Positions 2,676 to 62,830 of a stretch of DNA of 64,000 nt are shown here, one piece after another. The notes beneath the pieces were generated by a model. It made no database searches and had not been told where the DNA came from. It saw only the letters and a list, made by a program, of their open reading frames with translations. The DNA is from Antedon mediterranea (taxonomy: Eukaryota > Echinodermata > Crinoidea > Comatulida > Antedonidae), in contig NC_092673.1 in the NCBI RefSeq assembly GCF_964355755.1, positions 14,513,001 to 14,577,000 on the forward strand, written 5' to 3'. Both the position numbers and the translations under genes were made by a program. Each line of letters starts with the position of its first letter. The first letter of the stretch is position 1.

Positions 2676-4182
2676 TTACTGTTGACGTGTTATTTTATTT
2701 GCTTTCAAGAAATGATCAAGCGCTGTTACGATAGAACCTGTACCAAAAGGTAGGTTTGCTTCAAGCTGTTTCTCCTATAAAACAAGACAAAGTTGTTTGT
2801 TGTTTAAGTTTATACAGAACATTTATAAATCGAAAAGTGTGTTCCTCACAATATTTGAGAACGCATCTTTTGCCTTGATAATGTTTTTATATCCTTGTCA
2901 ATTGATTGTCTGTCATGTCCTTTAAAGTTACTGAGTGGAGCTTTTCTTTCTTTATCTTTAATGCTTAAAATAGTAATAGTATAAACATTTTCAACCAAAA
3001 TATAATATAAAAAAAACGTGACCGTTAACAATTTGGTTAAATATTAATTTTAAGCATTGAATTGCAAATGATCATATCAATTTGATTTAAATTTTAAAAG
3101 ATTTTAAAAGATGTATGCTACACAATGTTACTAAGATAATACTAATTAGATGTTGGATTCTTGGGTTATTAGGATAAATGTTATCCCCTACCCCAAAAAA
3201 TATTTGAAGATAAAACACTGATGATCATTACAAATGACGCAAGTACATACAATGCATCCCTATATTTTTCTTGTTAACATCGATTTTTTCACTCTATATG
3301 TCCGTGGGAAGAAAATGATACCAAAGAAGTTTAACGGTAACCCCCCTCCAGCCCATGGACTATAGTGGGTTAATTGTACAATCCCATCGGGATCCCACTT
3401 GAATTCTCGCTGTGATAAAAAAATCATAAGTCGACATATTGCATTGCATATCGTTATTAATACTTCAAAGTATATTTGTTATTTTTGATTGCTCTAATTT
3501 TATCATTTAGTTTTTTGACAGTTTCGGTCCACACCTGCTCCCTTTGCTCAACTTGAATCTCTTGGTACCGTTTGAATATGTGAGCTGAAATAAAACAATA
3601 CGACGGTTAAATCACAGAATGTTGTGTTGTGTTTTTATTTACAGCGTTTAATTATTGTCCATGTATACAAGACGCATTGCAATGATACAGTAGGCCTATA
3701 GTGCTGCAACAGACGAGTTGTTTTAAAGAAACATTAAACATAAAGTTTCCACAGGTGGGGCTTGGAAGGGGATTGCTGCTTTCGTAACCAAAGATACTGT
3801 TAATTTACTCACTTCTAAGCGCCCGTCTTTTAACCTCGGCCATCGCCACCTTGTCCCGGCCAAATCCATAAATGCTTAAAGTGGCGCATTCTTCTTTGCA
3901 AACAACCAGTTCAAGAAGGTTAATTAAGGGCCAGCTTCATTATGTTGGTTGCCGACATTTCAGCCAGTCACCCGGTACCCAGGTATGTAAATTCTTGTAT
4001 AAATTGTTTCCAATCGATTAGATCAACATAATAAATAGCACATCAAATTCACGGCCGGCTAAACAATTATTTTCAAAACCTACCACTAGTATCAGAATCC
4101 TCTTGGGAAGGAGGAGGAGGAGGACATGATGATGGTGGCAATTTCGCCGCATGCCTGCTTTCACCAGATATATGATCAGCCA
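2676..4182 (-). CDS. four-exon gene fragment, unnamed coiled-coil protein
   Basis: Four minus-strand exons join in phase with consensus splice sites: 4182-4084 (donor GTAGGT), 3893-3813 (donor GTGAGT), 3584-3535 (acceptor TTTCAG, donor GTGTGG) and 2774-2676 (acceptor TATAG, TAA stop). The product goes from a Ser/Pro-rich stretch with five prolines in a row, through a basic segment (VAMAEVKRRALRTHIFKRYQ), to a charged helix ending LEANLPFGTGSIVTALDHFL. If the third exon is not spliced at 3535 it stays open to a TAA at 3458-3456, giving an alternative C-terminus. The start and upstream exons were not found. The tail resembles the C-terminal half of Myb/SANT or MADF-type partner proteins of Harbinger elements, but no domain is certain. 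It could equally be a host gene. Confidence 0.5.
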
Positions 4183-5642: not shown

Positions 5643-8600
5643 ACATCTCAAGAAGGTCCGTGCTTCGGTACGAAGTGGAGCGAAATACCGATAGGTATAG
5701 AATGGGACCACATGCGTTGGCTGATTACTCATATTAACCACAGAAAGACACAGGAAAGTGTGGAACAAGAGGTTGAAGAAGAAGAGGAATCTTGTATAGA
5801 AGAGGATGTTATAAGCATGCTATCAGACTCTGCCGCAGTAGATGTAACATTCAATACAGAAGGTAAGATGTTTAATGACAATTAATAATAATAAAGTTAT
5901 TAAATAAAATTGCCATTCAATATATCCTTTACACTTAAAATAAAAATGGGTACAGTAAATACTTGTTAAATAAATTTAAATTTATTAAATACATTCTACA
6001 ATGCACAATACTATATAAATTCTCAAAAGATTTTACCACAATAGATGCATACATCATGGCATACACAATATATAACAGCAGAAATCAAACCTTTAACTAA
6101 AACAATTTTACTCCTATGAATACAACTTGTGGATTATGCATTTTGTGTAAATCCTCAACAGATTTACTACTAAAATAGTCTTTAAACTTATCCCGTGTTT
6201 CTCGAGCACTTGATTTGTAGTTGTTAGAACCAACTCTTCTAACATTTTGAAAGCCTGTTTCATCATTACTAATAATGCTCCGCCATTCGCCTTCCTTAAA
6301 TTCATTATTACTGTAGCTGTCAACAAATCCATTTGGTAGATAATGAGCATTGTCGGTTTGCATAAGATAATTAGGAAGACATACTACAGTTTTCAATGGG
6401 AAAATATCATCCCCCAAAATAATGTACGGAAGCGTGTATCCATTCACATCTGATGCCGGTGGAATATTTAAACCTCCTACCTCATCTGCCTTCTTAAAAA
6501 AAGAAGATTGCCCAAAAATCGAAGCATCGTTATCTCGTCCATAGGACCCGACACTAACCCATATAAATGAATACTTCGCGTCACAAATAGCCATTAGCAC
6601 TGAACTGTGAAACCATTCTTCCTCAGTTGATGGTGTTCTGAGATATTTAAAGTTGTATTGTCCCCCAAAACATGAAAAATAAAGATGAAAAAAATCAAAT
6701 TTTGAATAGACCATTTTGTAGTTATAATAAAGTTATTCACTTTCGCCGAAAAAAAATCCGGAAAAAATATTGATTTCGCTTATAAAAAATCAAAATAAAA
6801 AAATAAGTTCAGAAATTCCAAAATAACGATGGTTAGCTAACAGCTCATAAATATGCATGATATGTTAATGAGTATCCAAACAGGGGAGATCCGATCTGTT
6901 CACCACGTAAACAAACATGTTAGTCCGGTCCCTAAGGGGAAATGATGTTACCATAGTGGATACAAGTGTGCCCTTTGGCATGTTGATAGAACAGGATATG
7001 GAGATACCAAAACAAAGTTACTGGAAATCTGATTTGACCTCTGTGACCTCTGACCTCAATTTTTATATTTCTATCTTAAACAGCCATATCTCCGCAACGG
7101 GTTTGACAATTGAAATAATATTGGTGTCAAATAGATCAGAGGGTACATATTTATATTCGCTCTAATAGAACTTTTTTCAAAAAAACGACCGGAAATGTAA
7201 TTTTTCAATGTTTTGACCTTTGACCTCGGCTTACTATATCTCAATAACTACTGGTCAAAATTTCTTGAAATTTATTTCAAATTGTTAAGAGCATACATAT
7301 TTATATATACTCTAATTAAACATGTTCTTCCAAATTCACAGGAAATGTCATTTACTGACCTTTGACCTTTAATGTTTAAATATGTCTGTATCTCTGTAAC
7401 CAAATGTCATAAAAAGTTCAACTTGTTGTCAAAATGTTCAGAATGTAAACATTTATATTAGCTCTAATAGAAGATGTTACCATATTTTTACTGGAAATGC
7501 CAGTTTATAACCAGGATATACTGTAAAGCGTGCGTGTGTCATACTTATAATAATATACCTAAAATATAGATTTAATGGACCAGAACTACATTCAATATCC
7601 TATTTAGCCTTTTACAATTTTCTTAAAACTTAATGTTTAATTTAATTTCAATATATAATTCCATCGCATGGTAGGCCTACACCGTAAGAGCAACACTTAA
7701 TGTCAACAAAAAATTAGGTAAACTTAAAGTTAAATAACATAAAAAAAAAAAAAAAATCAAGATCTTAAAGAAAGAAAAGAAGAATTAACCAATGCGATTT
7801 GATACTCATAAAACATAGAAATCTGAAAAGGATCAAAGACAAATTAATTACAAAGCTGATTTCTTTTCAAGAACATACTGTAGTGGTATATAAAAGGAAA
7901 AATTACCATCTTGGCTTGATGAGGCAATAACATATCCAGCTCATAACACTGTACAACAAAATCTTTGAAACCAGAAGAAATGAAGAGAAGCACTGCATTG
8001 GAAGAGGTGTTTAATCAAAGAGCTAATATAAAAAATAGAGTAAATAGAGTTTTTTGGGTATGCACTATATCATTTTTTTCAATCCAATTTTTGGTGAAAC
8101 TATTATGTATGACATTAAAATTGCATATTCAACAAAAATATTTGTCAAAATTACTTTTGTCAGGGGGAAAATAAGTATATCTTTAATAACATGTGATATT
8201 ATTAGCAAATATTTCAAATGTAGTTTTAAAACTTTCCAGTACAATTCCGGCCATTTTGCAGTAGCATTGGAAAAGCGAGAGAGGGGGAGGTGGTTGGGAT
8301 GATGGAGAGACACATATTTTTTACATGTTTGTCTACACTATAAACTAGTTTAACAAAAAAGGTGTGATGTGCCCAAATATGGTAGTGTCCATCACATTTT
8401 TTTGTCGCATAAAAATGTTATAGTGCAGACAGAGTTTAACATTTGTGTAACATGTAAAAAAAATATGTGTCTCTCCATCCACCCCAACCCCCTCCCCTCT
8501 CTCGATCTCTTTTTATAGATTATTAATTGCTAAATATATGCAATACAGATGGGTCATAGCTCAAAATGACATTTCCAATTGAATTCTGACAAAATATTTT

Positions 8601-19990: not shown

Positions 19991-20229
19991 AATAAAAAAA
20001 CAAATAAAAGTTTTTACAACCAATTTTCATTTTTTTTTTTTCAGGGGACAGAATTCATCATCTTTAAAGTTGGACAGCAAGAAATTATCATCAGTGGAAA
20101 CTTGATTTCTGAATACTTGCCAATGATCCACACAGACGATTCATTAAAAAATGAACATTACATTATATATTTATCGGAGGCTTGGTGGAAACCGGTAGTA
20201 ATTAATATAAAAATAATTATTTTATAGGC

Positions 20230-21878
20230 TTGACCTACTTACCTGGCATAACGGACAAATTCCCGTCTCTCAAATTTGGGTTAAAGTTGGCGGTGATAAG
20301 GGGGGTGGGAATTTTAAACAGATGATCCAGATTGCAAATGTTTACCACCCAAACTCCCTCCAAAATACAGTTGTGGATTGTTTTGAGGCAACAGACTACA
20401 CAAAACTTGAGGACAGGCCTACAAAGGCATCTGAATCAAATTCAAAACTTGCAATATGCAGTAATAAGGTTAGTACTTAATTGTATAATTATTCTTTTAC
20501 AACATGTGACCCATATTAAATATATTAAATGAGATAAAACTAAATTTGTCTCTATAAAATGAAACAGTCTTCATATTTGGAGACTACGAATATTTAACCC
20601 GCATATATGGGCTAACAGGAGCTAGTGGTAAGTAAAACCGGCCCCCAGCCTAAGGTTGCTCACAAAGTACTCATTTTTATACGTCTCATATTGGCACTTG
20701 ATGCAGTTCAAGATTTGCATGCAGAACCTCAATATACAAGACATGTTGAAGTACTTCGGGAAATTCACCAAAAGAATCAAAAGGCCGATGAAGTAGCCCA
20801 AGAAGTAACGTCTCTTCGAGATTACTTACATGTCTTCATTGCTAGTGAAATTCAGCTGAAAGAGGACCAAGAAAAAGAACTGGTAAATTTACCGCAACTG
20901 TTAAATGACTGTTTTCATGACAGCTTTACCAAAGAAATATATATATATTATGTATGTCCTTTCTACTGTATCTTTTGCAGAGAAACGCGGCTAAAACACT
21001 ATCTGATGACATAAACTTGCCAAAGGACGGACTCCTAAAAACCACTCTAGACACTGTGCTTCAAAAATGCGGATTCACCGACAGGCCTACCATGGCAAAT
21101 CATTTGTGGCCAACCATGTCCATAAATGTTGTAAAGTAAGTTATTTATTTATTCTTTGTCTCCTTAGTGGCCCACACACAGATTCTTTCCTTTTCTTGCG
21201 ACAACGTCACCAATTTATTTCTCGTCGCTACAGCACTGAGGGCCGTGAACAAAATACAGTTACCTGTAAATTTTATGTCCATGATATTGATGTTCGGTTT
21301 CATCCTTGAATAATAATGTTTTTCAATTATATTTTATTTTGCAGCCAGAAACCATCAAGAAAATGATGGATGGCATGATGGCATAGAAGAAACTGCAAAT
21401 AAAATTTGCCCACAGTTGGATGTTTCGGATGTAATCCATCTGTATGGAACCTTATTAAATACAAGTTCGGAAAATGCCACAGACAATATAATTCTGCCCT
21501 GTTCTTCACAGAGGAAATGGTAAAATCGCTAGGTAATGAAGTGTTTCTTGCTTGAAAAAAAAAGAGTAAAAGCACAGAATTCAAGAATATTTGGCATTCT
21601 TTCGCGCCAATTTTGATGAAACCGAACCCCCAAAATTACATATCTTAGAACACCATGTATGTGAATGGATTAGGAGGTGGGGGTTCGGTTTAGGATTTCA
21701 CGGCGAACAGGGTGGTGAATCTATGCACTCACAACTAAACTCCATCAAAAGAGATGTCAGAGGAATCCCAGATGACCTGAAGATCTTGGAAAGTGTTATG
21801 AAGACCCACTGGATAAAGACCTCTCCACAAATGATGGCAGCGAAGCCGAAAAAGGCAAACCAAAGAAAACACAACTGA
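20230..21878 (+). pseudogene. RAG1/Transib-like transposase remnant (copy A)
   Basis: Recognisable blocks in order: IWVKVGGDKGGGNFKQ with Asp at 20295, then YHPNS; FGDYEYLTRIYGLTGASG with Asp at 20582, ending at a GTAAGT donor; a coiled-coil stretch near 20690-20890; RQAYHGKSFVANHVHKCC near 21075-21135; and a final exon 21591-21878 with PPKLHILEHHVCEW, HGEQGGESMHSQLN and VMKTHWIKTS. Zinc-type His residues are at 21639 and 21654 and the putative catalytic Glu at 21717. Block order and spacing match RAG1, including the late Lys-x2-His-Trp motif; the His-to-Glu distance is 21 against 20 in RAG1. Frameshifts at about 20395 and 21065, and stops in the 21340-21530 part, make it non-functional as read, unless unseen splicing rescues it. 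It is followed at once by two histone-type stem-loops. Confidence 0.75.
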
Positions 21879-43162: not shown

Positions 43163-44395
43163 TTTACATTTTGGCAAAAAGAAGTTGAACATTGTAAATA
43201 AAGAAAAAATAAGCTATTCACATCAGTCAGAGAGTATCAACAATAAGTTAACTTGGGAAAAAGAAGCTGATCACTCTAAATAAAAAAAAAGATGCTTTTC
43301 AAATCATTCAGAGAGTATCAACAATAAGTTAACTTGGGAAAAGGAAGCTGAACACTGTAAATAAAGAAAAAAGATGCTATTCAAATCAGTCAAAGAGTAT
43401 CAACAATAAGTTAACTTGGCAAAAAGAAGCTGAACATTGTAAATAAAGAAAAAAGATGCTATTCAAATCAGTCAGAGAGTATCAACAATAGGTTAACTTG
43501 GGAAAAAGAAGCTGATCATTGTAAATAAAGAAAAAAGATGCTATTCAAATCAGTCAGAGAGTATCAACAATATGTTAACTTGGGAAAAAGAAGCTGATCA
43601 CTCTAAATAAAAAAAAAGATGCTTTTCAAATCATTCAGAGAGTATCAACAATAAGTTAACTTGGGAAAAGGAAGCTGAACACTGTAAATAAAGAAAAAAG
43701 ATGCTATTCAAATCAGTCAAAGAGTATCAACAATAAGTTAACTTGGCAAAAAGAAGCTGAACATTGTAAATAAAGAAAAAAGATGCTATTCAAATCAGTC
43801 AGAGAGTATCAACAATAGGTTAACTTGGGAAAAAGAAGCTGATCATTGTAAATAAAGAAAAAAGATGCTATTCAAATCAGTCAGAGAGTATCAACAATAA
43901 GTTAACTTGGCAAAAAGAATCTGAACACTGTAAATAAAGGAAAAAGATGCTTTTCAAATCAGTCAGAGAGTATCAACAATAAGTTAACTTGGCAAAAAGA
44001 AGCTGATCATTGTAAATAAAGGAAAAAGATGCTATTCAAATCAGTCAAAGAGTATCAACAATAAGTTAACGTGGCAAAAAGAAGCTGATCATTGTAAATA
44101 AAGGAAAAAGATGCTATTCAAATCAGTCAAAGAGTATCAACAATAAGTTAACGTGGGAAAAAGAAGCTGATCATTGTAAATAAAGGAAAAAGATGCTATT
44201 CAAATCAGTCAAAGAGTATCAACAATAAGTTAACTTGGCAAAAAGAAGCTGATCATTGTAAATAAAGGAAAAAGATGCTATTCAAATCAGTCAAAGAGTA
44301 TCAACAATAAAGTTAACTTGGCAAAAAGAAGCTGAACACTGTAAATAAAGAAAAAAGATGCTATTCAAATCAGTCAGAGAGTATCAACAATAAGT
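43163..44395. repeat. 82-bp satellite array, about 15 units, with higher-order structure
   Basis: Units of 81-82 bp share GAGTATCAACAATAAGTTAA, AAAAAGAAGCTGA and AAAGATGCTATTCAAATCAG. Units 1-4 (43228-43554) recur almost exactly as units 5-8 (43555-43881), with the same diagnostic changes (for example CACTCTAAATAAAAAAAAAG only in units 1 and 5), giving a 327-bp higher-order unit. Later units are more uniform. The first unit, near 43163, is diverged. Confidence 0.92.
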
Positions 44396-44399
44396 TGGA

Positions 44400-47300: not shown

Positions 47301-50300
47301 ATGTGACACATAAAGTAGGTGAGGTGATGGATGGCTGCTGTGGCAAGTGATATTTTTGGGGCAAAACAAATCTAATTTAGCAAATTTCATCCAACTTGAT
47401 TGCAAAATCTAAATAGATGAGAACGAAGGCAAAGTTGTGGATTGGAAAAAGAAAAATCAAATGTTAAGAGATGTAGGTGTAGGATTCGTGGAAGAAATGG
47501 TATTGGAACTGCGTAGTCTTTTCTAGATCCAAGATATTTTTCAAATATTACCTTACCTGTTCAATTTTTTTTTTCCCCATCACATTGATGGCAAGTAATT
47601 GTCATCGATTTCGGTCAAATTTACAGTCAATTCACATGGCTCCTCCCAATACTAAAGAGTGGAAAGATATCGCTATCCAGTTTGAAAAAAAAAATGGAAT
47701 TTTCAAAATTGTGTAGCAGCTATATGTGAATTGATAGTTGGAGATGAAGCATTTCTTTTCAGGCCTTTTTAAGGTAAATTAATATTTCAATATTGTTTAG
47801 TTAATATAGTATGGCAGAAAATGGTAGTGGATGACCATGTTTAAACCAGTTCATGCAAAGGAGATAGTGGGTGACCATAGGATAAATGATCATGGATTTA
47901 TGGTTCAACGTTTTAGAGAAAAAAGACCAATGTATGAACACTAGAGCTTCATTTAGAAGAGGTAGCATTGACATCATAAAATACAATGAGGGGACAAATT
48001 GAAAAAAATAAATCAGCAATGCAAATGTTTTCGGTTTACTGGAAGTAGAAAATAATGACCTATTCCTGTGTGATGTAAGAAATCAGATTTACCATACACT
48101 TGAGAGTAAGCTATGGTTTTCAAGTTTACAAAATCATAGCAAAGTAGGCATATAATAAATAATAATTTACTATATAATAAAAAAAAACTAAGGAGAAAGA
48201 TGATTGCACAAATGATAAAGAATATTCAAAGGCAGTGTATACAATTTTCGAATAGAATATTCAGAAAGGCTACCCTACTAAGTTTTTTGGACGCTGATAA
48301 TATCGATCCTCACCAAGGTGGCCTAGAAATAAGATGAGCTGAACGGATATTTTGAGATAGATGCAACCAGTTTGACTGCCTTGAAGCTACTTTCAGACAT
48401 CTATACTGTTTGCCAAAGAGTTGTAGTCATAAAAATATGTTGTGAAATTGGGCACTGCAGTTTGCGTACCACTTCAGGTTTGTCATTGACCATTAGAAAG
48501 TACTTTGAAATACGTTCTGGTTCTTTGTTTCAACAGTTTGTCTATCAATCACCTAATGAGCTGTCGTCACATAATTTTTCCCCGGTGGACAGAGAAATAC
48601 AAATTCCTATTCAGCAAAACTTTTTTGGGAAGTTTACACCACAAAAGAGAAAATATTTAGATAGCAATGGTCATTTAAGAATTATGGATCTTGATTCCTG
48701 ATAGGACAGAGAACATTTTAAAATTGGTTTGGTCAATGTACTTAAAATATGAATTAAAATTGAATTTAATTATTTTGACCTTTGACCCATTCTTAAGTGG
48801 ACTTGGCCTCGGATTTTAAACTTAGAACGATGAATCCTTAATAAGTATGTTCATAAGTGTGATGCTAATTAAATTATTATTATTATTATTTATTGCCAAA
48901 AACCAGTTACAAACAAACAAAACACAGAAACTAAGGGAGTAGGCAGGAACCTAAAAGTGAACCTAATTTCAGGGGAAATTTGGGTGAATCCCCCCTTAAA
49001 ATTGAACAGGACCAGTCACTTAAGAATTGACATTTCTGGGTCCCATAGACCATATCTATGTATGTAGGTATTAGTATGACGTCATCAGTTGGACGGGACG
49101 GCAGGACATATTAGAGTAGAGTATTTTGTATAAATAAGAAAAATATCAAGTGGCAGATTGGACACTAACATATTAAACCATAGAGAGTTTACTATATGTT
49201 CAGTATGTTAAGCAATGTATTATCAAGACGTCATATTGTGGACAGGACGGTAGGACGGGTATACAAATTATTCTCATCTATTACTAACTACAAAGAAGGC
49301 GTATCGATTGATTGTGCCTAAACGGAGAATGTTGCAGCTGTCACAGTTATGCAAATGAGAAAGTTCTATTGTATAAAACAATAACACCACTACACTGTCA
49401 CCATTATACTTGAAGTTTGTAGACCGACAAGGTAAATATGGCTGTCCACCAGATTGCTGGTTTCCCAGATGTAATTGATAATGATATATATATATATGAT
49501 TTAAAAGCATTTTTTCAAGTTGCGCAAATTATTTTTTTTTTAAAATGGTGAAAGGTTGGTGCTTCTGAGAAGAATTCAGTCGCTGAATGATGACGACTGG
49601 CTAAAACTATCTAAATTCAGCATCAACAAAGAAGAACTGTCCACTTTGGAGAGATCAAAGTGAATTAGCGATGCTGTAAGTAATACAACTGACTTTTCTA
49701 GTTACGCAATACTGGAGGTTTACATAAATTTATATTACTTAAGATACTATCTTATATTATATATATCCGATAAAAGGGGATCTCCTTACTCAAGCTATAG
49801 ATGCATCTTCTACAGAACAAGATATGTACCAAAGGACAATTTACCTTTAAATGTTGTAAGTAATCTCTCATCATCATGAGTTAAACATCTGCACGTCTAA
49901 ACAAAATATTTATTGCAAGACAGTGCTTATTGGGTAACCACATTCATAAAATGTATATGGTAAGCAATCTTCAACATTTATATTATTATTTAAAATTAAT
50001 TACCTCATGAAAGGGATATGTGGTATTGTTCATAATTGATTCTAAACACGGATTAAAGATGCAGACGAAATTGCCTCCAGATACAATTCACCAACTTTGG
50101 CATACACAAGAAGTCAAAATGTTGAGTAGCTGTTGATGAAAGTCTGAGACATTCAGTTTCTTTTCAGCAGTCTGTGGACTGTATGTTTAATGTGCTAGTC
50201 ATTTTACCATCCCATAAGGAGTTATATGTATTATTATAGGTACACATTGGCCGTAGATTTGTTAGGCGATTAAGTAACAGGTATGTTACACCCCATAATA

Positions 50301-52260
50301 TACCAATTTTAGCCATACTTATCTGCCCTTTCAACAAGTAATGCCTGGTTCACACTAGCAGACTGTAATCCAGATCGGGAGGTAATGTTAGCTTATCTCA
50401 TCGCAGCCTGCTGCTCTCACATTCTCCATAAAGGGCATTGGAATACACTAAATTTTTTTTGGAACTAAATCTGCCACATCATTGGTGAAATTACAGTAAA
50501 CTTTTTTCAAACTTTAGTGATAATCTAGGCAAAGGCCACAAAAAATAATATAATCTTGTACAGTCTTGAAAGTAGTCATATAGTAATCTTTCCATGTTGC
50601 TACCCATATTAAAAAATTAGTAAGCACTTGTAGCAACTATTAAGTGTCTGTCACATTTGTGAGGGAGAGTGTTTGGGTATGTACTGAAGAAGCTGTACAC
50701 AATTATAGGAAATTAAAAAGAGCAGTGGTTGTGGCCGCCATCCACCCATTTCCACCTATGTCGGAGACGGTGGGGGAACTGGTGACGCATTTCCTGCAAA
50801 GAGAAACAACCAAGACGACATTTGCGTGCCAGGACATTCGTTTGAACGTCCCGGCTAACTCTGTACAAGACACCAGGGGGCGGCTAGTTGCTCGGGCGAC
50901 AGGTTTGTCCCGGCCATCGGCAGGTTTACAGTGGAGGTGAACAGTGCTAATCTCTATAAGAGGAAAAAGCCATTAAATGAAGCAGCTGTTATTTTGCTTA
51001 ATCAAGTTATAGACTTGGTGTTCAGTATGGAGGTATTAGCCAATTCATGTGGGCTAGGTCTTCAGAAACAAAAAAATGAATCCAACAGAAGTGTATTGGA
51101 CAAGTCATATGTTAATGGCAATAGATTTTTAGAGGTATAAAACTATAAATGTTTATAAGTCACTGTCACTGTGAATGCACTGTTTATTTTAAATACATTT
51201 TATTTATCGTAATTTTAGTCAATTCCAAATTGCCCCGTGAAATGGAATCCGAAAAGCTTGACGTCCCAGTTATGCTTAAACCACAAAATTCCGATGGCGC
51301 GCCTGTCCACGGAATGTGCCCTTATAAAAAGGATAATCCTTTACCAAAGCGGACAAAACGTAATTCTACATACCAAAATGATGCCATTTACTTTAGATTC
51401 CTTAAAAAGAGTGCTATTCTTTCTCTGCAACATCAGTCCAGCAGACCAACTGACTAACATCAAATTAAATACCCTATTGCACTTGTTCTGCTAAGTACTC
51501 ACCCACAGTCTGTCTTTCCCAGGAAGGCCTACGCCATCCTAGGAAAAGTAACTCGCCTTGTAAACAGAAAAGTATAATGTGTGCCACTTATCCATGTGAC
51601 CTGTGTCAATGTGTACAGCACTGGGTCTCCCACCCCGCACAAACATGCCATCATCACCCAACTATTCTTAGCAAAGGGTAATTTGAAAAAGTAGGGAAGA
51701 TACTTACTATTAAAAAAAATTAGTCTTGTGTCCTGTTTTGCATACCAATATGATATTGCGAGTGACATGACATATCATGAGTGACACGACATTGTGAAAC
51801 GACAGGACTTTAACTATACCTCTTACAAGTTGGACAAAGATTTTTCATATAATAAGGTACAGGAAAACTATTTGCTTTGAGATCATTTCATTTTTTAAAT
51901 ATACAGCTCTTGAAAACTTCTCTTGAAAAATTGTTATGCTTAAATCGTCGGTGAGGCAACCATTTTTTAAATTTTAAAGTTCTCATTTATTTTAAATATT
52001 ACTTCTGAGAATTAAGTATAATGCTAAGGTACTCTTCAAATACAAATGGTGTACTATGCTTTGCCATATGAATCTTTTCAAAGACATTTAAAAAATAAAC
52101 AACTAACCAACCAAGGCATCAACCTTTTCAAAGACATTAAAAAAAACAAACAAGGCATGGACCTTTTAAAAGACATTAAAAAAAAAAACAAATAAATCTG
52201 AAAAATAATAACTATGGATCTTAGAAGACAAAATTTGGTCAGTTTTATTTTAAAACGTTT
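44400..52260. other. gene-poor region
   Basis: No coding region can be supported. Frames at 45581-45919 (-), 48372-48701 (+) and 50644-50940 (+) have some protein-like composition. The last contains TFACQDIRLNVPANSVQD and RGRLVARATGLSRPSAGLQW, but no domain is recognised. Small direct repeats with GACGGGACGG / GGACAGGACGG occur at 49090 and 49240. Three copies of CTTTTCAAAGACATTNAAAA lie at 52075-52190, just before the foldback element. Confidence 0.4.
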
Positions 52261-52264
52261 TTTG

Positions 52265-53958
52265 AATTTTGTTTTATTTAGAATTTTATGTTATAAGCTC
52301 TACAGACTTTTACAAATCCAAAACGTTTATAAACGTTTTGTTTGCTTGTTTGTACTTTGTAAAACTACCTCCTCTCCGACTCCTGTACATCCCCATGCTT
52401 TTTGTTTTGTTTTGGTTGTTCTGCCCACTAAGAGGCAAACCGAAAAGGCCAATTTGGTTAGACTTTGGAGTTCTCCAATGATTTGACATGGAATTACCTA
52501 TGGAAATTGGTTATTAACCACTGGACAAATGCATGTAGAGTAGACTCTACCATTGTTAAAGTTCGTCTACTGGTGTTAGCGTTTGTCTACTGGTGTTAGC
52601 GTTTGTCTACTGATGTTATAGGGGATCTACTTCACACTCTTAATAGCGTTAGGCTAGCACTCTTGGTAGCGTTAGGCTCGCACTCATAATAGTGTTAAGC
52701 TTGCACTCTTACTAGTGTTAGATTCACACTCTTAATAGCATTAGGCTCGCACTCTTACTAGAGTTAGGCTTGCACTCTTTAATAGCAGTAGGCTCGCATT
52801 CTTAATAGCGTTAGGCTCGCATTCTTAACAGAGTTAGGCTCGCACTCTTTAGCAGCTGTAGGCTCGCACTCTTTAGCAGCTGTAGGCTTGTACTTTAGCA
52901 GTTGTAGGCTCGCACTCATAATAGCGTTAGGCTCGCACTCTTACTAGAGTTAGGTTCGCTCTCTTAATAGCCGTAGGCTCGCATTCTTACTAGTGTTAGA
53001 CTTGCACTCTCATTAGCGTTAGGCTTGCACTCTTTAATAGCAGTAGGCTCGCATTCATAATAGCGTTAGGCTCGCATTCTTAATAGCGTTAGGCTCACAT
53101 TCTTAATAGCGTTAGGCTCACACTCTTTAGCAGATGTAGGCTCCCACTCTTTAGCAGCTGTAGGCTCCCACTCTTTAGCAGCTGTAGGCTCGCAATTAAT
53201 AGCAGGTGTAGGCTTGTACTCTTTAGCAGCTCTAGGCTCGCACTCTTTAGCAGTGATAGGCTGGTACTATGTAGGCTGGTACTTCTGTAGCAGCTGTAGG
53301 CTCGTACTTCTCAGCTGCGGTTGGCTTGTACTTCTGAAGCAGCTGTAGGCTTGTACTTCTTAGCAGCTTCTTCAGCAGATGTAGGCTCGTACTCTTCGGT
53401 AGGCTCGCACTCTAATGTAGGCATGTCCTCTATGGTTCGATCGCACTCTTTGGTAGGATCGCACTCTTCGGTAGGATCGCACTCTTCCGTAGGCACGCAC
53501 TCTTCCGTAGGCACGCACTCTTCCGTAGGCACGCACTCTTCCATAGGCACGCACTCTTCCATAGGCTCACACTCTTCAGTAGACTTGCTCTAACATTGGT
53601 AGGCGTGCTCTAACATCAGTAGGCGCACTTTAACATCGGTAGGCACACTCTAGCAATGGTAGAGTCTACTCTACATGCATAGTCTGGTGGTTAGTATCCA
53701 ATTTCTGTGGGTATTTTCATGTCAAATTGTTGGAGTACTTCATAGTAAAATCAAATTGACCTTTTTGGTTTGTCATCTTAGTTGGCAGAACAACCAAAAC
53801 AACACTTAAGCATGAGGATGTACGGCTCTTGGAGAAGAGGTGGTTTTTGTTTTGATTGTATTCATTTTTTTTCTCTTTTTTTTTTCAAGTTTATAAACGT
53901 TTTGGTTTTTTAAAAGTCTGTAGATCTTTGTATTCTAAATATTATGTTTTTATAATTT
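52265..53958. mobile_element. foldback element with minisatellite core
   Basis: Two inverted arms of about 290-310 bp, 52265-52556 and 53648-53958, flank a 1.1-kb tandem repeat. Paired landmarks include GTAGAGTAGACTCTACCATTG at the inner edge (quoted in part), TTTGGTTGTTCTGCC, CTACAGACTTTTA and CCAAAACGTTTATAAAC. Arms are about 80 percent identical by eye. Sea urchin TU elements are established examples of foldback transposons with tandem-repeat arms; this one has single-copy arms and a repeat core. No transposase or clear target duplication was found. Confidence 0.8.
52557..53660. repeat. minisatellite, 18-24 bp units
   Basis: The left part has about 23-bp units around GTTAGGCTCGCACTCTTAATAG. 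The right part (about 53450-53590) has 18-bp units, GTAGGCACGCACTCTTCC. Because 18 is a multiple of 3, long repetitive frames appear on both strands (for example EECVPT repeats); these are artefacts of the array. Confidence 0.9.
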
Positions 53959-54335
53959 GTTTACTGGTATGTTGGCATCAGCTAATGTGCATCTATATGC
54001 AGATAACATATTTTATAGATTCTGTTATTTATTAGTAAAATATCATACAGTAAAATATACTGCAGTATAACAAACCAGGACAAAACATCTGACCATAACG
54101 ACCCATAATATTGCAATTTGTTACAATAGCTAATTCCATTTATTTATATATGTATTTTGACTATATTGCATTTTCAGTAACGTGTAGTACTGCAACTAGA
54201 AAACTTTACCATCTGTGTCTATGGCAGTTTTACAAACACTACTTTTCTGTCATAACAGCTTTTACTAATAAGATATTGGATCTGTAACAAGACCTGACCC
54301 TAAACCCAAGTCACAGCATTTACACTTCCGCTCTA

Positions 54336-54620
54336 CGCCCCGCCCATTTTTCTTAATAAAAATACACGGCGCTGATTGGACTGTTCGATGACGTCACGCA
54401 CACTTCAACTCGTGGCCTTGTGTTAAAGAGTTGCCGATTCGCTAATTTGTGATGCAAAATAGCATTTCGTAGCGCTTAAATATAAAGAAATTGTCCAATC
54501 AGATCTCTTCTTTGATAGAAGATTCGGATTAATCATATATTGAAACCCCTAGCAGACTATAAAATAATCATTCTGGAAAGTTCGCTAGTTGTCGGCGGGT
54601 GTCAGAATCAAAAGTTTTTG
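54336..54620 (+). promoter_or_regulatory. promoter-like region and noncoding first exon
   Basis: In order: GC box CGCCCCGCCC at 54336-54345, inverted CCAAT (ATTGG) at 54375-54379, cAMP-response element TGACGTCA at 54389-54396, CCAAT at 54495-54499 and TATAAAAT at 54558-54565. A transcript starting about 25-30 bp later would run into a strong donor, GTAAGTGAGG, at 54621. The first coding block of transposase copy B starts 1.1 kb downstream. The link to that gene is inferred from position and strand. Confidence 0.55.
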
Positions 54621-55760
54621 GTAAGTGAGGGTTATTTACCTTTATAACTCGCTTATTTGAATATAAACATATTATTTTAAAGAGTCAGCTAGCTTCATTA
54701 TTTATTTAGGATCATGTTGATATATAAAACCGTACTATTAAGCGAATTTAAGTTATTTAAATATGAGCGCACGTCTAGGCCCTACAAACGGCTAGCTTGT
54801 TAAAACTCAACAAATGATTGTATGACGCGTCGTTGAGCTGATTGTGGCCGCGTACGTACAACATGCGCTGCGCAAGCCGGCTAGGCCTAAGCTGGTGGTG
54901 TGGCAAGCACGGTTGGTGTGGCCTAAAACTGGCATGGCCGAGTAGCTTTTTTAGGCCTGAACCTACAAAATGGTGCGTAAACAAGGCCTTGTTATTTTGG
55001 ATAACAAATAATACTTTAAATTTAATACAGGTGGCCCGATATATTAAAGTTTAAAGAAAATGTTAATATTAATGAATAATAACTAATAGCCTATATTAAT
55101 TTTTATTAGTCTTCATTAATTGTGGGTTTTTAAAGTAAAGTTTATGTGATTTAAATTAAGTAGTACCCCCCCCCCCCAAACTTCATCATATATATATTAT
55201 TTTATTCTCTTTTGCTTGTAAACTCCTATATTAATAATTTATATTTTATTCTGCAATGTGCGCTATACATTGATGTTTATAACTTTATACATTTTTATAT
55301 TGTTTTTATTTATTTATATTTCAGATTAATTGGTGATTCTGTTTACAGACGTTATATGCATGGCATGACAGTCACTGATCTGGCTACTTACAGAACATTT
55401 TACTAACTACTGTATTCATAGGCCAACAACATAGATAAATAAACAATTCAGAATATAAACAATTACAAAAAATATACCGTAGATTGACAGGCATTTCATC
55501 TAATATTGATTTGTATTATTTTAAAGCAATTATTTTGACTGTTTAGGCAATAATTTCTTTATATATTTTTACAGTTCTGTATTATTTTATAATTTAACTA
55601 CAATTATTATTTTCATTTGTACTTATATTAAGTTGTGAATTAAAAATCGTATATTACAAATATAATTTTGATTGATTCCTCTTTTTTGTTTATAATTTCT
55701 ACATTTTCTTTGTAATAAGTGTGACTATTCAATACATTGTTATTTGGTAAACAATTCATA

Positions 55761-58700
55761 ATGGTTAAAAATACAACATGTAAATCCGGTGGAAAAAAAA
55801 AAAAAAAACGTTACCATGGGGGTATGTCTTCTTCCCAAAAGAAAAAAAGACGACAGGCATATCGGCGTAATATGGATGGAAAATCAACGGAGATGGAAAG
55901 TCAACAGTTTCAAGAACCATTGAAATCCCAATTACCCCCAAAACTGCAGGCAAAAGGACCAGGAACACAATTGGTACCAGAAACATTTCCAGCAGTACCA
56001 TTACACGAAGCCGATGACATTCACACATTAAAGAATGAAATAATACACTTAAAACAACATAATCAAAATCTAACGGATCAGTTGACTGCCATGACCCAGC
56101 AAAATGAATGTCTACAGAAGAATGCAAAAGATCAAACAACAAAACATAACGCGACACTTTCTGTTTGTCTTGAAAAGGGTGAGGGTCCCCTGGTAAAAAA
56201 GGGACTTCTTTTGACTAAGCCATTTGGAAGTGATGAATGATAAAATTGTACCTGACTATTCCAAATAAAGATAATCCGAGTTCTGTTGCCAGTAGCAGAA
56301 TTCTGAGGGCCAGGGCAATTGAATTGAAGCAGGTATTCATTCTTCTTTTTTCCTAAAATGTTTTATTACAGTACGCTGGAAATCGTAATTTCGATTTTAA
56401 CTAAGATATAAATCATAAGTCTGATTTAAAATTGGAAATAGGCCTATGTTACTCTCCTCCTCATGCATCAAGCAAATACGTAAATGCAAATAAAAAAGGA
56501 AAACAATAATTGTATGCAAATGAGACTGGTAACAATTTCCGTGAATTCGAATTGGAAGGCAAAACTTTCTCGATGGATGGTAAAAAATCAATAATAATCC
56601 ATCCATCACTTTGTTGTGAAATAATATTCAGTTCATAATATGTAAATCAAAATGTTTCATTATGCCCAATAATGTCAGGCTCTTGAAGTAATATCATCTA
56701 GGGAAGAATCAACAGATGAAGATCTAATTGCAACGCTAATGGTATTTGTTAAGCAAAATCCTCGTATTTCGTTGGAGGCATTCAAACGGGCTGGAATCAA
56801 CTATATTAATAGTAAGTCGAAACATAGAAGGATTCGAATTGAAACATTCCGGCCGAATTGCATACGTATTTCTTTATACTGTGAAACTATTTGTATATAA
56901 ACCATATAAAAATAATTGGTAAATTAACGTGAATCTATTTCAAGCATGCCCACATGGTTGAAATTACAGAAAAGCATGCGTATTTTGTTATGGTCGGCGC
57001 GTGTGTGTAAATGAATTAAATAAAATGAAAACGATTGACAGACACCAATAAGCATATCATTTATTTGCAAGAAAGACACTGGTTAAGTAGCTCATACCAT
57101 GTCTTGTAGAACTCAGCACAAGTGAAACTCTCGATCTGAAGCTATTGCTGCGTTTACCAATGCAGAAACTACGCCAGCTCCGCACTTTCCTGACAAACCA
57201 TGGAATACCAGTACTTGCAAGCGATCGAAAACTGTACAAAGAATTGAAAGGTATTGCCCGAAAAATCGCATTATTAATTGATCCAATTGATGTTATCGCA
57301 TATACCGTAATCTATCGCTCCACATAACATCACATTCTTTTAATAGGACGGCGAAATTTGTCAGACATCAAGGTAGGTGAGATGGTAATGCAAAAAGCCG
57401 CAAATGCAAAGGAAAGCAAAATCGCATTTGTTCGTGTGAACAATATCCACGACTGGATCAAGGAAGTTGTTCACATTCACGAGCAAAACGATAATTTATG
57501 GGAACATCAATGTTTCCATAACGAAGCATGGGTTAAAATAGGTGTAAGTACATTAAATTATCGATTTTTTAAAGTAAAAGAGTATCATACGAAAAAGAAA
57601 ATCATAAATCTTTTGTTAGGGTTATTCTATCATTTCTGGCGTAACATTATTAATGAACGCTTACAATGCCGCACAAAGTTAACGAATTATATACTGGTTG
57701 TTCTGCAATAGGGTGATAAAGGCGGTCCGTCAACGAAATTGGTAGCACAGATTGTCAATGTAAACAAACCAAACTCGGCAACAACAACAGAAATAATTTC
57801 GATGTATAACGCTTTTGACAACTATTCGAACATGAAAGCTATGTTTGATGTGTACACTGAACAGTTCGTTCATTTGCAGAATGAGTCAACACTACAGATA
57901 GGGGGATGTGAAAAACCAGTCCGAGTATTTCTCTTCGGAGATTATGAGTGGCTCACGAAGATCCTGGGCCACCTCGGACCGGTATCTACCTTCCCCTGTC
58001 TGTGGTGTTATATCCATCGTGACGACTTGTACAGGCCTGCAAATGAACGAACCATTCGTCCACATTCACCAATGATAACATCTGAAGATGGCAACTGGTG
58101 TGAAAACGCCTTGTGGTATGCCGAAGAAAGAACGCCAGGGCAAATGGCAACAGACCTCGCAAACTGCAAAGAAGACAAAAGAAATAAAGGAGACAGCAAG
58201 AAAAACAGCAAGTTCCATCACTCAATCTTCGAGGTACCAATACTGCCAATGGGAAGTGACATGGTGCATGTAGTGCCACCAGTACTACATATCATGTTAG
58301 GTCTCACGGTTCGTTTTTATAAGCAAATCGAAGACATTGCGAGAACAGCAGATGGTAGCAAAAATGTTGAAGAGAACGCAACGTTCGTAGAATGGAACAT
58401 GAAAACAGAAGAGGTTAAGGAAATAGAAGAGAAGACAGAATTATCAAAAGCCGACTTAAGGTATCAAGTTTCGCTTCTGGAAGGATTCCGTAAGTGTATG
58501 AATGGTAATCGTGGAAATGGTCTTTCAGACAAATGTGCCCTAGCCACTTGTGCCCTCGCAAGGAATAAAGTAGAAGGAGTAGTGGCGGGGGACATTTCCT
58601 GGATTAGATGTGACAGCTGTGATGAGGAGGTAGAGGAGGATAGGAAATGGTTTCATGTAGATTGTGTGGGCTTGAAGGGTGAGGACTATGTGAATATGGA

Positions 58701-59436
58701 ATTCCATTGTCCTCAATGTAGAAAGCAGCTTGAAACACCTGCTGATATTATGGAATGGCAAACTGATAGAGTAGAAAGTTGTAAGGAAAGCTTAGAAAAG
58801 ATGGAAAAGGAGAAGGGTGTAGCAGAGAAGGAATTGGCGGAAGTATATGAAGAAGTGAAAGGGATAATTGGTCCAAGAGAAAAGTTGTTAAATTCAATTC
58901 TGGATGGCGAGCTGCACGTCAAAAAGCAAGCATACCATTCGCAATGTTTTGTTGGGAATCACTGCAAGAAGATTTTGCGTAATTCGGTGAGAGTCCTGGC
59001 ATGCTTAGAGGGACTTCCCGATCACCAGAGGTATGTTGATTTGCTGGGTAGGTTGGACCATGTTTTTTCTTTCACAAGTGCAAGATTTTTATGCGACAAC
59101 GAGGTTGAAGATGTTCGCCAAAGCTGTTGGGCATTGGGAATTTTCTTTTGCAGTATCTTTCCTGAGCAGAACATTCCGCCCAAACTGCACATCTTAATAT
59201 CTCATGTTCCTGAATGCGCACTTTTGTTTAGAACTTTAGGTCTGTTGTCCGAACACGGCATCGAGTCACTCCACGCTCAAGTAAATGCAGACGCCAGGCA
59301 ATATGCCCCAGTTCGCGATAATATTGAAAGGCTAAGGTTAGTATTTAACCTACATAGTCAGAGAGCACTTGTTGGCACTGAAGGGTTGAACACGGGGAGA
59401 AGAAAGTGCCAATGTGGTGGATGGTTTTCGGCATAA
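55761..59436 (+). CDS. RAG1/Transib-like DDE transposase with internal PHD finger (copy B)
   Basis: Exon blocks: 55761-56178 (Lys-rich start, coiled coil), about 56237-56332, 56679-56811, 57091-57250, 57347-57543 and 57712-59436. The last three join in phase; earlier joins are unresolved. The junction WVKIG|GDKGG gives the first Asp (57715). In the 565-codon last block, counted from 57739: GDYE (Asp68), CLWC (87-90), VVPPVLHIMLGL (178-189), a C4HC3 PHD-like finger (Cys266, 271, 291, 294, His306, Cys309, 324, 327), a coiled coil (about 340-375), KKQAYHSQCFVGNH, KLHILISHVPE (His484, His489) and SEHGIES (Glu509). The spacings Asp68-Cys87 (19) and His489-Glu509 (20) equal RAG1 D708-C727 and H942-E962. 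Function inferred: metal-dependent cut-and-paste transposase in the nucleus. The open frame suggests a young or conserved copy. Confidence 0.75.
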
Positions 59437-59495
59437 AGTGACGGGGAAAAATATTGCAAGACATGTGGCGATCTTCAATCTCTGTAAATAGTAAC

Positions 59496-59554
59496 CTGGC
59501 CCCGAAACCGCGACATAGAAATACCGGATTGGTGTCCGGCGGGAAATAGTTTAC

Positions 59555-59589
<35 letters not shown>

Positions 59590-60419
59590 GTGTATAGAGA
59601 GAGAGAGCACAGCTTTTGTTCTTGTAAGCCTGTATAAATAATGGCCCCGAAACCGCGACTCAGAAATACCGGGTTGGTGTCCGGCGGGGGATAAAAAAAA
59701 AATGTATATAGAGAGAAAGCACAGGCTTATTTATGTTAACATTTTCTATCGTACGTTATTTGTAATTTTTTTTTGTTCTTCTAGGCCTATATAAATAATG
59801 GCCCCGAAACCGCGACTCATAAATACCGGGTTGGTGTCCGGCGGGGGATAGTTTTACTATTAAAAAAAAAAAAAAAAAAACACTGTATATAGAGAGGAAT
59901 CACAGGCCTATTTATGTTAACATTTTGTATCATACGTTATTTGTAATTTGTTTTTGTTCTTGTAGGCCTATATTTAATCATGGCCCCGAAACCGCGACTC
60001 AGAAATACCGGGTTGGTGTCCGGCGGGGAATAGTTTACCATAAAAAAAAAACCACTGTATATAGTTTAGAGAGAAAGCACATGCCTATTAGTATTTATGT
60101 TAACATTTTGTCTATCATACGTTATTTGTAATTTGTTTTTGTTCTTGTAGGTCTATATATAAATAATTGTATAAATTGTGTAAATTATATAAAATCATGG
60201 CCCCGAAACCGTGACTCAGAAATACCGGGTTGGTGTCCGGCGGGGGATAGTTTCACCAAAAAACACTAAATGTATCAATGATTTTTTTTTTTAAAGCATA
60301 TGCCTGTTTATGTTAAAATAATTTGTATTTAGTTTAGTTGTATTATACACTTTATATATACAATAATGGCCTCGAAACCGCGACTCAGAAATACCGGGTT
60401 GGTGTCCGGCGGGGGATAG
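59496..60419 (+). repeat. six copies of a 54-bp GC-rich unit with ATG-to-stop mini-ORF
   Basis: Units at 59496-59549, 59641-59694, 59798-59851, 59980-60033, 60197-60250 and 60366-60419 are all exactly 54 bp, with substitutions but no indels. Spacers vary (about 90-165 bp, poly-A plus 'GTTAACATTTTGT..GTTCTTGTAGGCCTATATAAAT'). Units 2, 3, 4 and 6 read from ATG to a stop, 17 codons: MAPKPRLRNTGLVSGGG or one-residue variants. Unit 1 has CTG for ATG and unit 5 has TGA for CGA. CCCCG and CGGGG at the ends can pair, as can CCGG with CCGG inside. GGTTGGTGTCC resembles a pol III B box. It may be a small-RNA repeat, subterminal transposon repeats or a satellite. Confidence 0.85.
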
Positions 60420-61300
60420 TTTCACCATAAAAAAAACTAAATAAATTGATATAATAAACAAAATATACCGTTATGTTTATTAAAACAAAGCACGTACCGT
60501 ACCAAACAAACAATAGTTTGTGTGTATTTTGTTTCAGTCATGATCGGATTAGACCACCTACAAAATAGTTATGTTAAAATGTTATGCCCTTACTAAAATC
60601 AATCATATCAATTCAGTAAATAAACAAGTACATAAAAAGATATCAAATGAAAAGACAGGTAGGTATATTTTCAACTTTATTCAGTTTTTCAACAGTTGCT
60701 AGCTGCACATAATATTTAACACATAACAGCACAGTCTGAGCTGTTGAATTGTCTGTGCCGCTGGCCGTGTGCATGTCGTTGCAAAACTACCATGTCACAA
60801 ATGCTAAACGATGGTTTTTGAAACCGCTGTAAAATAATTAAAAAGACATTAAATAACAATATGAAGTAGATATGTACACATTTATATTATTCAAGATATT
60901 AACTGTACTTTTCAAAAATTGTTGAAATTAAATTAAATATGTTTAATAGCTTTACAAAGTCCGATCAAATTTCATAACATCTACAGCTTCTGAATTGTTG
61001 ACGCGCGTATCGAACGCGTTTTCGTGTGTAAAAGTTCAGTGCACTTTGTTTGGTCGCGTAGCAGTGCTATGATTGGCTAGAATTACCTGTCATTTAAGGT
61101 CCGCACATACACGCGCCAGGTACGCGCATATACCATACCGCTAGGCGGCGGTACAATTTATAACACAGTGTAAATGCTGTGAAGTATGCTGGCTTCACAT
61201 ACTGTTTGTATGTGGTCAAAATGTGGCATCTTGACTTGCCACTATCTTTGTTTGCATGGGCCAATGTGTTGTCAAATCGTGGCAGCTTGGCCTGCTAAAT
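60420..61300. other. intergenic region
   Basis: No gene is seen. 60990-61145 is richer in GC, with ACGCGCGTATCGAACGCG and GTACGCGCATATACC, and may be promoter-like DNA. CACAGTG occurs at about 61165 without a matching nonamer at 12 or 23 bp. Confidence 0.35.
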
Positions 61301-61516
61301 CATTAGGCTAGCTGCACACTCTTGCAGCATTAGGCTAGCTGCACACTCTTGCAGCATTAGGCTAGCTGCACACTCTTGCAGCATTAGGCTAGCTGCACAC
61401 TCTTGCAGCATTAGGCTAGCTGGACACTCTTGCAGCATTAGGCTAGCTGCACACTCTTGCAGCATTAGGCTAGCTGCACACTCCGGCAGCATTAGGCTGG
61501 CTGCACACTCCTGTAG
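61301..61516. repeat. 27-bp minisatellite, eight units
   Basis: Units of CATTAGGCTAGCTGCACACT plus CTTGCAG. The period is nine codons, so the minus strand shows a repetitive frame (QECAASLML) that I reject as a gene. The core TTAGGCT...CACTCTT is shared with the minisatellite at 52557-53660. Confidence 0.95.
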
Positions 61517-61539
61517 CTTTTTGATCATTCAGTGCAGTA

Positions 61540-62830
61540 ATCATTCTCGTCATTTCCTTATGGTTCACACCAGAAACCTAATAAATTGAAGTCCATAGAA
61601 TGAATTCAAAATATTAAATCAACTATTACTTTTATTATTTCAATGCTATATGTCTTTACCTAATCTTTAAAAATTCTTAAACCTTTGCTTGGTATAGATT
61701 GTTGTATAGTGCTGTTATATGCAGCACTAGGTCTTAAAAACAATCTTTTTTTTTAAACCTGCCCATTCCCATTCTTGGTGCTATAAGCTTCTTGCTTAAA
61801 TACATTTGTACCAATATTAGGTATACTGTGTTTCCTTTTTCTTTCCTTTTTAATTGCTATCGACCATTGATCGTAGATTGTTGTATTGTGCTCTTATATG
61901 CAGCACTAGGTTTTAAAAACAATCTTTTTTTAAAGCACTGTTCCTTTTCTTACAACCCGTAAGGCCTAGCTTGTATAGTGTTTATGAATTGCCTTTATGC
62001 AATATAATCAGGCATAGTTCTAATTGAAATCTTTAAAAAAATATCTCCATCAAAAATATCTTTATCAAAGCCATGTACATTTTCAAAATGGCCAATTCTG
62101 TGGATGACTTGTATCCCTTTATTTTCAACTATATCCCTGCATCCTTTTGAACATTCAGTGTAATGATCTCGTCCTTTCCTTATGGTTTAGTCACTGCTCT
62201 GTTGACATGACCAGAAATTTTCATTTACCTTGATTATTTCAATGTTGTTGACTAAACAAAAATCCATACTGTTCTTAAACCTTTACTTGGTATAAGACAT
62301 AATGGTGATATTGTTTCACCTGTACCAAAACATCACTTTTTCAAAAAGCAACCATTCTGCATGCTTTAAGAGCTTTGCACACTACCCTCTTGCATCTACA
62401 CTTTGATTATTTCAATGCTATATGTCTTTACCTAACCTTTAAAGATTCTTAAACCTTTACTTGGTATAAGACATAATGGTGATATATTGTTTCCCCTGTG
62501 CCCAAACGTCACTCCTTTTGTAGTCCTATTACCTAGAACGCTAATAACCACTTTTGCATGCTCTAAGAGCTTTGCATCTACATCTTTTTCTCATTTCCAT
62601 TTTAATGCTATAAGCTTCTTGCTTAAATACACTTGTACCAATATTAGGTATACTGTGTCTCTTCCTTTTCAATTGCCATCAACCATTGATTGTAGATTGT
62701 TGTATATAGTGCTGTTATATGCAGAAAAATAATCTTGTTTTCAAAACCTTATTCCTTTTCTTACAAGCAGTAAGACCTAGCTTGTATAGTGTTTATGTAT
62801 TGCCATTATGCAATATAATTGGGCATAGTT
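61540..62830. repeat. diverged direct repeats of about 800 bp
   Basis: Blocks recur in the same order: ATTTCAATGCTATATGTCTT at 61639 and 62409; AAGCTTCTTGCTTAAATACA near 61786 and 62610; and GTAGATTGTTGTAT followed by CTAGCTTGTATAGTGTTTAT near 61873-61985 and 62692-62790. A third partial copy with CTTGGTATAAGACATAATGG is at about 62285. No gene is seen. Confidence 0.8.

Follow-up and report, generated by a model that had tools for sequence, protein, structure and literature searches.

Chapaev is a known distant relative of the vertebrate antibody-gene recombinase. In published descriptions, Chapaev elements are characterized by target duplications of 3 to 4 bp, 5'-CAC/GTG-3' ends, a DDE transposase and the C(2)C, LH and H(4)H motifs (PMC4079192). 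Pfam family DUF1280 is assigned to their transposases, and RAG1 and DUF1280 are placed in one clade (PMC3985635). Another publication treats Chapaev as one clade within the Transib superfamily and describes Chapa and RING domains in Chapaev (PMC4411706), the Chapa zinc domain not being universal in Chapaev and the RING following it in two subgroups. The C(2)C and H(3-4)H motifs are common to CACTA/EnSpm, Mirage, Chapaev, Transib and RAG1 (PMC12730594). Here we analyzed a 64,000-nucleotide stretch of the genome of the crinoid Antedon mediterranea (contig NC_092673.1, positions 14,513,001 to 14,577,000), hereafter the window, in whose coordinates positions are given. It almost certainly carries a complete, autonomous-type cut-and-paste Chapaev DNA transposon (CMC/CMCT), with six exons coding for a transposase of 891 amino acids.

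The original prediction had seen in this locus a Transib/RAG1-like DDE transposase, possibly on a branch outside the named groups. The assignment to a DDE transposase stands, in the broad sense of the group to which Transib and RAG1 both belong, but neither an unnamed branch outside the known groups nor a RAG-like or Transib transposon proper is supported: DUF1280, the termini and a 4-bp target duplication identify it as Chapaev. The published hallmarks tested (duplication length, termini, DDE, C(2)C, LH and H(4)H) are present, and the spliced protein matches DUF1280.

Termini, target duplications and insertion site

The transposon occupies positions 54312..61181 of the + strand (6870 bp), as delimited by its terminal inverted repeats, its target site duplication, empty sites and the end of homology to L023, another copy of the family. 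The ends were recognised through the point where homology to L023 ceases, which lies exactly at 61181. The 18 terminal bases at this right end (61164..61181, - strand), read inward, are CACAGCATTTACACTGTG. A search of the whole window for CACAGCATTTACACTGTG with up to 3 mismatches returned one further match, inverted, at 54312, which is the left terminal inverted repeat CACAGCATTTACACTTCC (54312..54329, + strand), identical to the right end at 15 of 18 positions; two matches were thus found where 0.10 would be expected by chance. In an inverted-repeat search the termini were present as 16 exact bp (E=0.009), amid many chance rows. The two ends read CACAG...CTGTG in inverted orientation, display the Chapaev hallmark (CACAGCATTTACACT...GTG), and are each flanked by AAGT (54308..54311 on the left, 61182..61185 on the right, both unstranded).

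When the two flanks were joined with a single AAGT, four places on contig 9 matched the resulting sequence end to end (92-96%), and two of these four paralogous sites were continuous through the junction with one AAGT. Because these sites match the joined flanks without the insert, the 6,870 bp represent an insertion into repeated sequence. The empty sites and the duplications demonstrate past movement with a 4-bp duplication. At the other two contig 9 sites, L053 and L054, 17 bp are gone exactly at the insertion point, which could be the scar of an old excision or an independent deletion.

Four shorter elements with similar ends (L056-L059; 1.74-1.87 kb between ends) contain parts of both ends of the window element at 72-73%. 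Their right terminal 15 bases are those of the window element, the left ones differing at 1-2 positions, and they are bordered by exact 4-bp duplications (AAGT, GCCT, GTGC and GTGC). They are probably its non-autonomous partners. The two GTGC elements have common flanks and were counted once, giving three independent sites besides that of the window. In total, exact 4-bp duplications were observed in all five elements examined with both ends found, at four independent sites. One additional left-end match (69%) was noted at C4:11547493-11547754.

The length and sequence of these duplications bear on the placement of the element within the CMC groups. Assignment to another CMC lineage, namely Chapaev3, Mirage or CACTA, could draw on the C(2)C and H(3-4)H motifs that all of them have in common (PMC12730594). 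We nonetheless regard it as very improbable: target duplications of Chapaev3 are TWA (PMC4079192), which the AAGT, GCCT and GTGC found here are not, so that Chapaev3 is set aside, and the spliced protein gave no match at E<=1 to the Pfam families that PMC3985635 assigns to Mirage (DUF1258) and CACTA (Transposase_21). Transib, whose target duplication is typically 5 bp (PMC4411706), is likewise disfavoured because the duplications are exactly 4 bp in 5/5 cases.

The transposase gene and its genomic copies

The transposase gene comprises 891 codons from an ATG at 55761, distributed over six exons, all on the + strand, and separated by five introns that are all GT-AG and keep the phase. Exon 1 (55761..56178) starts at the first in-frame ATG and encodes a basic, coiled-coil-like N-terminus with no RING; its only Pfam matches are weak ones of coiled-coil type, under the cut-off. 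Exons 2 (56271..56332), 3 (56679..56811) and 4 (57110..57250) were delimited by in-phase GT-AG junctions and similarity to the copy L024, and exon 5 (57347..57543) in the same way with the copy L025. Exon 6 (57712..59436, stop codon at 59434-59436) holds the DDE catalytic region, the zinc motifs and a helical insert with a PHD-like finger. The segment 57347-59436, which had been proposed as one open frame, therefore consists of two exons (57347-57543 and 57712-59436) joined across a GT-AG intron, with four more exons upstream.

The motifs that had drawn attention to this locus are present in the proposed order and places. The first catalytic Asp (GDKGG, equivalent to RAG1 D600) is encoded at 57715..57717 and is invariant in alignment A1, described below. 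The second (GDYE, equivalent to D708; Asp68 of the original prediction) is at 57940..57942. It is followed by the C-x2-C motif CLWC (57997..58008, Cys at 57997 and 58006; C727/C730), by an LH motif at 58288 that the A1 profile alignment pairs with that of RAG1, by H-x4-H (59188..59205, His at 59188 and 59203; H937/H942) and by the catalytic Glu (59263..59265; E962, Glu509 of the original prediction). Counting in the window protein bore out the claimed spacings of 19 from Asp to Cys, x2, x4 and 20 from His to Glu, and counting on the letters of the mouse RAG1 chain confirmed D600, D708, C727/C730, H937/H942 and E962 with their spacings.

Exon 6 alone matches DUF1280 with E=1.4e-10, and the spliced protein with E=4.6e-24 over profile positions 43-218 of 220 (176 positions), which supports the six-exon model. 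The protein had been called intact; the 891-residue frame is indeed open, but it stops at 59436, immediately ahead of the C-x2-C with which L024 and L025 complete a C-x-C...C-x2-C tail. No such tail was seen in the six sibling families inspected. Between 55500 and 61500, each open reading frame of at least 80 amino acids is either an exon of the transposase or one of two antisense frames; none of them pointed to a second gene, no search aimed at RAG2 having been made. A scan for relatives in collections of viral contigs and genome contigs found none.

The genome holds at least four copies of the family, every one of them on contig 4; contig 10 gave a single weak match, to a different family. 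The ratio of nonsynonymous to synonymous substitution rates (dN/dS) of the window copy was 0.285 against L023, 0.258 against L025 and 0.117 against L024, and these low values indicate that coding constraint acted over a large part of the history of the element. The presence of a single open copy beside three broken copies and a dN/dS below 0.3 could also be read as a host gene domesticated and retained after the transposon was immobilised. Yet the open copy lies within matching termini and a perfect target duplication, the paralogous sites are without the insert, and a transposase that is propagated by transposition should show constraint as well; we therefore consider domestication highly unlikely and retain the transposon interpretation.

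Several observations nevertheless weigh against a complete, autonomous-type Chapaev element. The gene model was built from splice signals, phase and homology rather than from transcripts, and transposition was read from sequence traces; at half of the four paralogous empty sites, 17 bp are missing from the junction. Of the four copies found (a lower bound), three are broken, so that recent activity is doubtful. At 1.95, the dS against L024 approaches saturation, and the copies used for comparison are the broken ones. No Chapa or RING domain was found: the 317-residue N-terminus contains four Cys and no Pfam RING, and the RING exon of a sibling family (L026) had no match in window positions 50001-62000. 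Finally, AlphaFold2 applied to exon 6 alone, without relatives, gave a mean predicted local distance difference test (pLDDT) score of 35.4, and because of this low confidence the RNase H fold is one that we infer.

By analogy with its family, the D-D-E site would sit within an RNase H fold, the zinc residues would form a structural site, and the transposase would bind the termini, excise the element and join it to the target with a 4-bp stagger. Hairpin chemistry operates in RAG and Transib and may do so likewise in the Chapaev transposase. More tentatively, the PHD-like finger might contact chromatin or a partner and thereby steer the enzyme, a role at which we can but guess, and tandem units in the 3' part of the element may act as extra subterminal binding sites. 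This subterminal array (59498..60413, + strand) consists of six copies of a 46-bp unit (~181-bp array), and similar units occur in L023 and L024. A 34-bp core of the unit has 74 genome matches with up to 3 mismatches, compared with none for the reversed control; six are in the element and 68 elsewhere, and several are paired ~105 bp apart. The unit also reads ATG...TAG following the acceptor-like TTTTTGTTCTTGTAG. A 49-nt piece containing it folded no better than shuffles (z 0.45), and Rfam gave no match above gathering scores over the window.

The genome holds 57 DUF1280 matches, 54 of them over the cut-off. One (C4:14533268-14533375) belongs to a relic of a different Chapaev family at window positions 20200-21300 (+ strand), where GGDKGGG, GDYEYL and RQAYHGKSF pieces lie in shifted frames. 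Elsewhere in the window we noted an open reading frame at 6097-6714 (- strand) with a DDE_Tnp_4 match (E=1.1e-6), presumably of PIF/Harbinger type, a tandem array at 43171-44396 (82-bp unit, 15 copies, 94%) and another at 52635-53662, with units of ~18-25 bp, ending ~650 bp before the element.

A PHD-like finger within the catalytic region

The window transposase is unusual in a single respect: its catalytic region contains a zinc finger of chromatin-reader-like type. This finger is encoded in the helical insert (58534..58719, + strand) with the pattern C-x4-C-x19-C-x2-C-x11-H-x2-C-x14-C-x2-C. Against the PDB it matched the ING2 PHD (E=1.5e-5), and against Pfam PHD it reached E=5e-4 and 20.5 bits, below the cut-off of 24. 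AlphaFold2 modelled the finger with a pLDDT of 57.6. Its first two Cys are doubtful as zinc ligands because this low-confidence model puts them within or next to a helix and one of them is lost in L023, where the second Cys is changed and the frame broken. In L025 the finger carries a deletion, and in L024 only its beginning is found. A separate and more regular PHD-type pattern (CDYCDVWYHGAC...CANC) was noted upstream of the L023 copy, at ~2604 of the reverse complement, and probably belongs to another element.

Sibling Chapaevs of the same genome (for instance L026, L032, L033, L034 and L036) have the same catalytic core but differ from the window element in carrying an upstream RING and zinc-finger exon, while their catalytic region is devoid of a finger pattern. 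C-x2-C...H-x2-C...C-x2-C was found in the catalytic region of none of 23 sibling loci (L026-L038 and L042-L051), which include copies of one family and do not all extend to the last exon. The RING exon of L026 (about 2800-3270) matches L033, L034, L036, L037 and L038, and a zinc-pattern scan detected a RING and zinc-finger exon in L026-L029, L031-L034 and L036. When a profile of five sibling RING exons was compared to the PDB, the top 13 rows were RAG1 (best E=2.3e-6), with BRCA1 next (4.2e-4). This sequence test agrees with the published N-terminal link between Chapaev and RAG1 (PMC4411706).

Three of the sibling loci (L027, L028 and L029, on contigs 7, 3 and 6; family A) are copies of a 6.56-kb Chapaev-bearing block, 99.95-99.97% identical, that starts near CACG. 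Since the block has neither a target duplication nor a GTG end, family A was rejected as a source of termini.

In the RAG system, RAG1 does the cutting and RAG2 reads trimethylated lysine 4 of histone H3 (H3K4me3) through its PHD finger. One may speculate, although we think it unlikely, that a Chapaev lineage swapped a RAG1-like RING/zinc N-terminus for a histone-reading PHD finger in the helical insert, so that one protein would do the work of RAG1 and RAG2 in cis and target active chromatin. Among the papers listed by literature searches on Chapaev and PHD, which did not extend to Repbase or Dfam, none was seen to describe a Chapaev with a PHD finger; in one such listing PMC4411706 alone contained the term 'PHD finger'. 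The window offers a complete, well-bounded element with an accessory zinc domain unlike those of its siblings in the same genome, and together they form a natural comparison of the contributions that the N-terminal domains of RAG1, on the one side, and a PHD finger, on the other, make to one catalytic core.

Likeness to RAG1 and comparison with described systems

Compared alone and pairwise to the PDB, the window protein found no RAG1 chain at E<=10. The RAG1 Pfam model had no match in this genome, a negative that carries no weight because it did not score in any control genome either. We therefore turn to profiles, of which A1 comprised eight Chapaev families of this genome, window included, and A2 ten rows without the window. 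Searched against the PDB (177,635 sequences), A1 placed zebrafish RAG1 first (E=0.026), aligning two stretches in order, from C(2)C to LH and from H(4)H to E. Less favourably for a RAG1 kinship, the A1 listing was without any mouse RAG1 chain, and A2 found no RAG1 at E<=10. The mouse RAG1 core was also scored directly, without speed filters, and compared with 2,000 composition shuffles. It obtained 13.8 bits with A1, 10.0 with A1 minus the window, 10.0 with A2 and 15.7 with A2 plus the window; with corrected rows the values were 13.5, 10.7, 10.4 and 13.5, respectively. None of the 2,000 shuffles reached the mouse RAG1 score in any of the four multi-row profiles, original or corrected. The window sequence alone gave -1.1 bits, which 120 of 2,000 shuffles reached, and hhalign assigned the similarity to the RAG1 core a probability of 8.1 and E=0.0043. 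Judged by these profile, shuffle and hhalign scores, the sequence kinship with RAG1 seems genuine but weak, and inclusion of the window row appears to strengthen it.

The match of motif spacings had been offered as a sign of this kinship. C(2)C and H(3-4)H were already published as common to the CMCT groups, so that zinc motifs at RAG1 spacing are not diagnostic, and the published motif and clade statements mean that RAG1-like geometry was already known for Chapaev-type elements. What is special to the window family is the distance of 20 from the second His to the Glu. Spacings were compared in 14 rows, of which two (L038 and L048) are without the H/E region; among the 12 scorable rows, the other 11 have 21. 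A spacing of 20 as ancestral RAG1 kinship was accordingly rejected. Six of the 14 rows were script-chained and retain intron residues between D708 and C727 (22-27); an in-frame GT-AG junction giving 19 from Asp to Cys exists in 11/11 sibling loci, other in-frame junctions being also possible in 8 of those 11.

These results allow us to weigh the proposal that the element is a divergent transposon of RAG-like or Transib-like type falling outside the groups that have names. Such a reading would account for the spacings of 19, x2, x4 and 20 and the HVPE, which are identical to those of RAG1, and for the rise that the window row brings to the mouse RAG1 score (10.0 to 13.8 or 15.7 bits; with corrected rows 10.7 to 13.5 and 10.4 to 13.5). 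It would also suit a midpoint-rooted tree of 14 genomic rows, in which the window forms a very long branch outside the 13 others, although long-branch error is possible there. We judge it extremely improbable, since the spliced protein matches DUF1280 at 4.6e-24 and no RAG1 Pfam family at E<=1, shares 25-32% of its residues with other Chapaev families of this genome and, as said, matches no RAG1 chain pairwise, and since the duplications are of 4 bp where those of Transib are typically 5 bp (PMC4411706). As a Chapaev, the element shows the reach of RAG1-like catalytic geometry outside RAG and Transib.

Set beside described systems, the window element has in common with RAG1 and RAG-like proteins the order and spacing of D600, D708, C727/C730, H937/H942 and E962, and the LH motif. 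Its termini begin with CACAG, like the heptamer of the recombination signal sequence, CACAGTG. Unlike RAG1 and RAG-like systems, its protein has no pairwise match and no RING, its duplication is 4 bp against the typical 5 bp, and a PHD-like finger is present in the transposase itself, whereas in the RAG system the PHD belongs to RAG2. With Transib it shares the catalytic and zinc motifs, in line with the published CMCT signature; it differs from Transib in the length of the duplication, and the HzTransib chain (6pqn) was not listed by the A1 and A2 profiles. Within Chapaev it is very divergent, with no Chapa/RING N-terminus found, a PHD-like finger in the helical insert and, against the other scorable rows of its genome, an H-to-E distance of 20 instead of 21. 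With Chapaev (DUF1280; CMC/CMCT) it shares the DUF1280 region, the D-D-E, C(2)C, LH and H(4)H motifs, the CAC...GTG termini and the 4-bp duplication.

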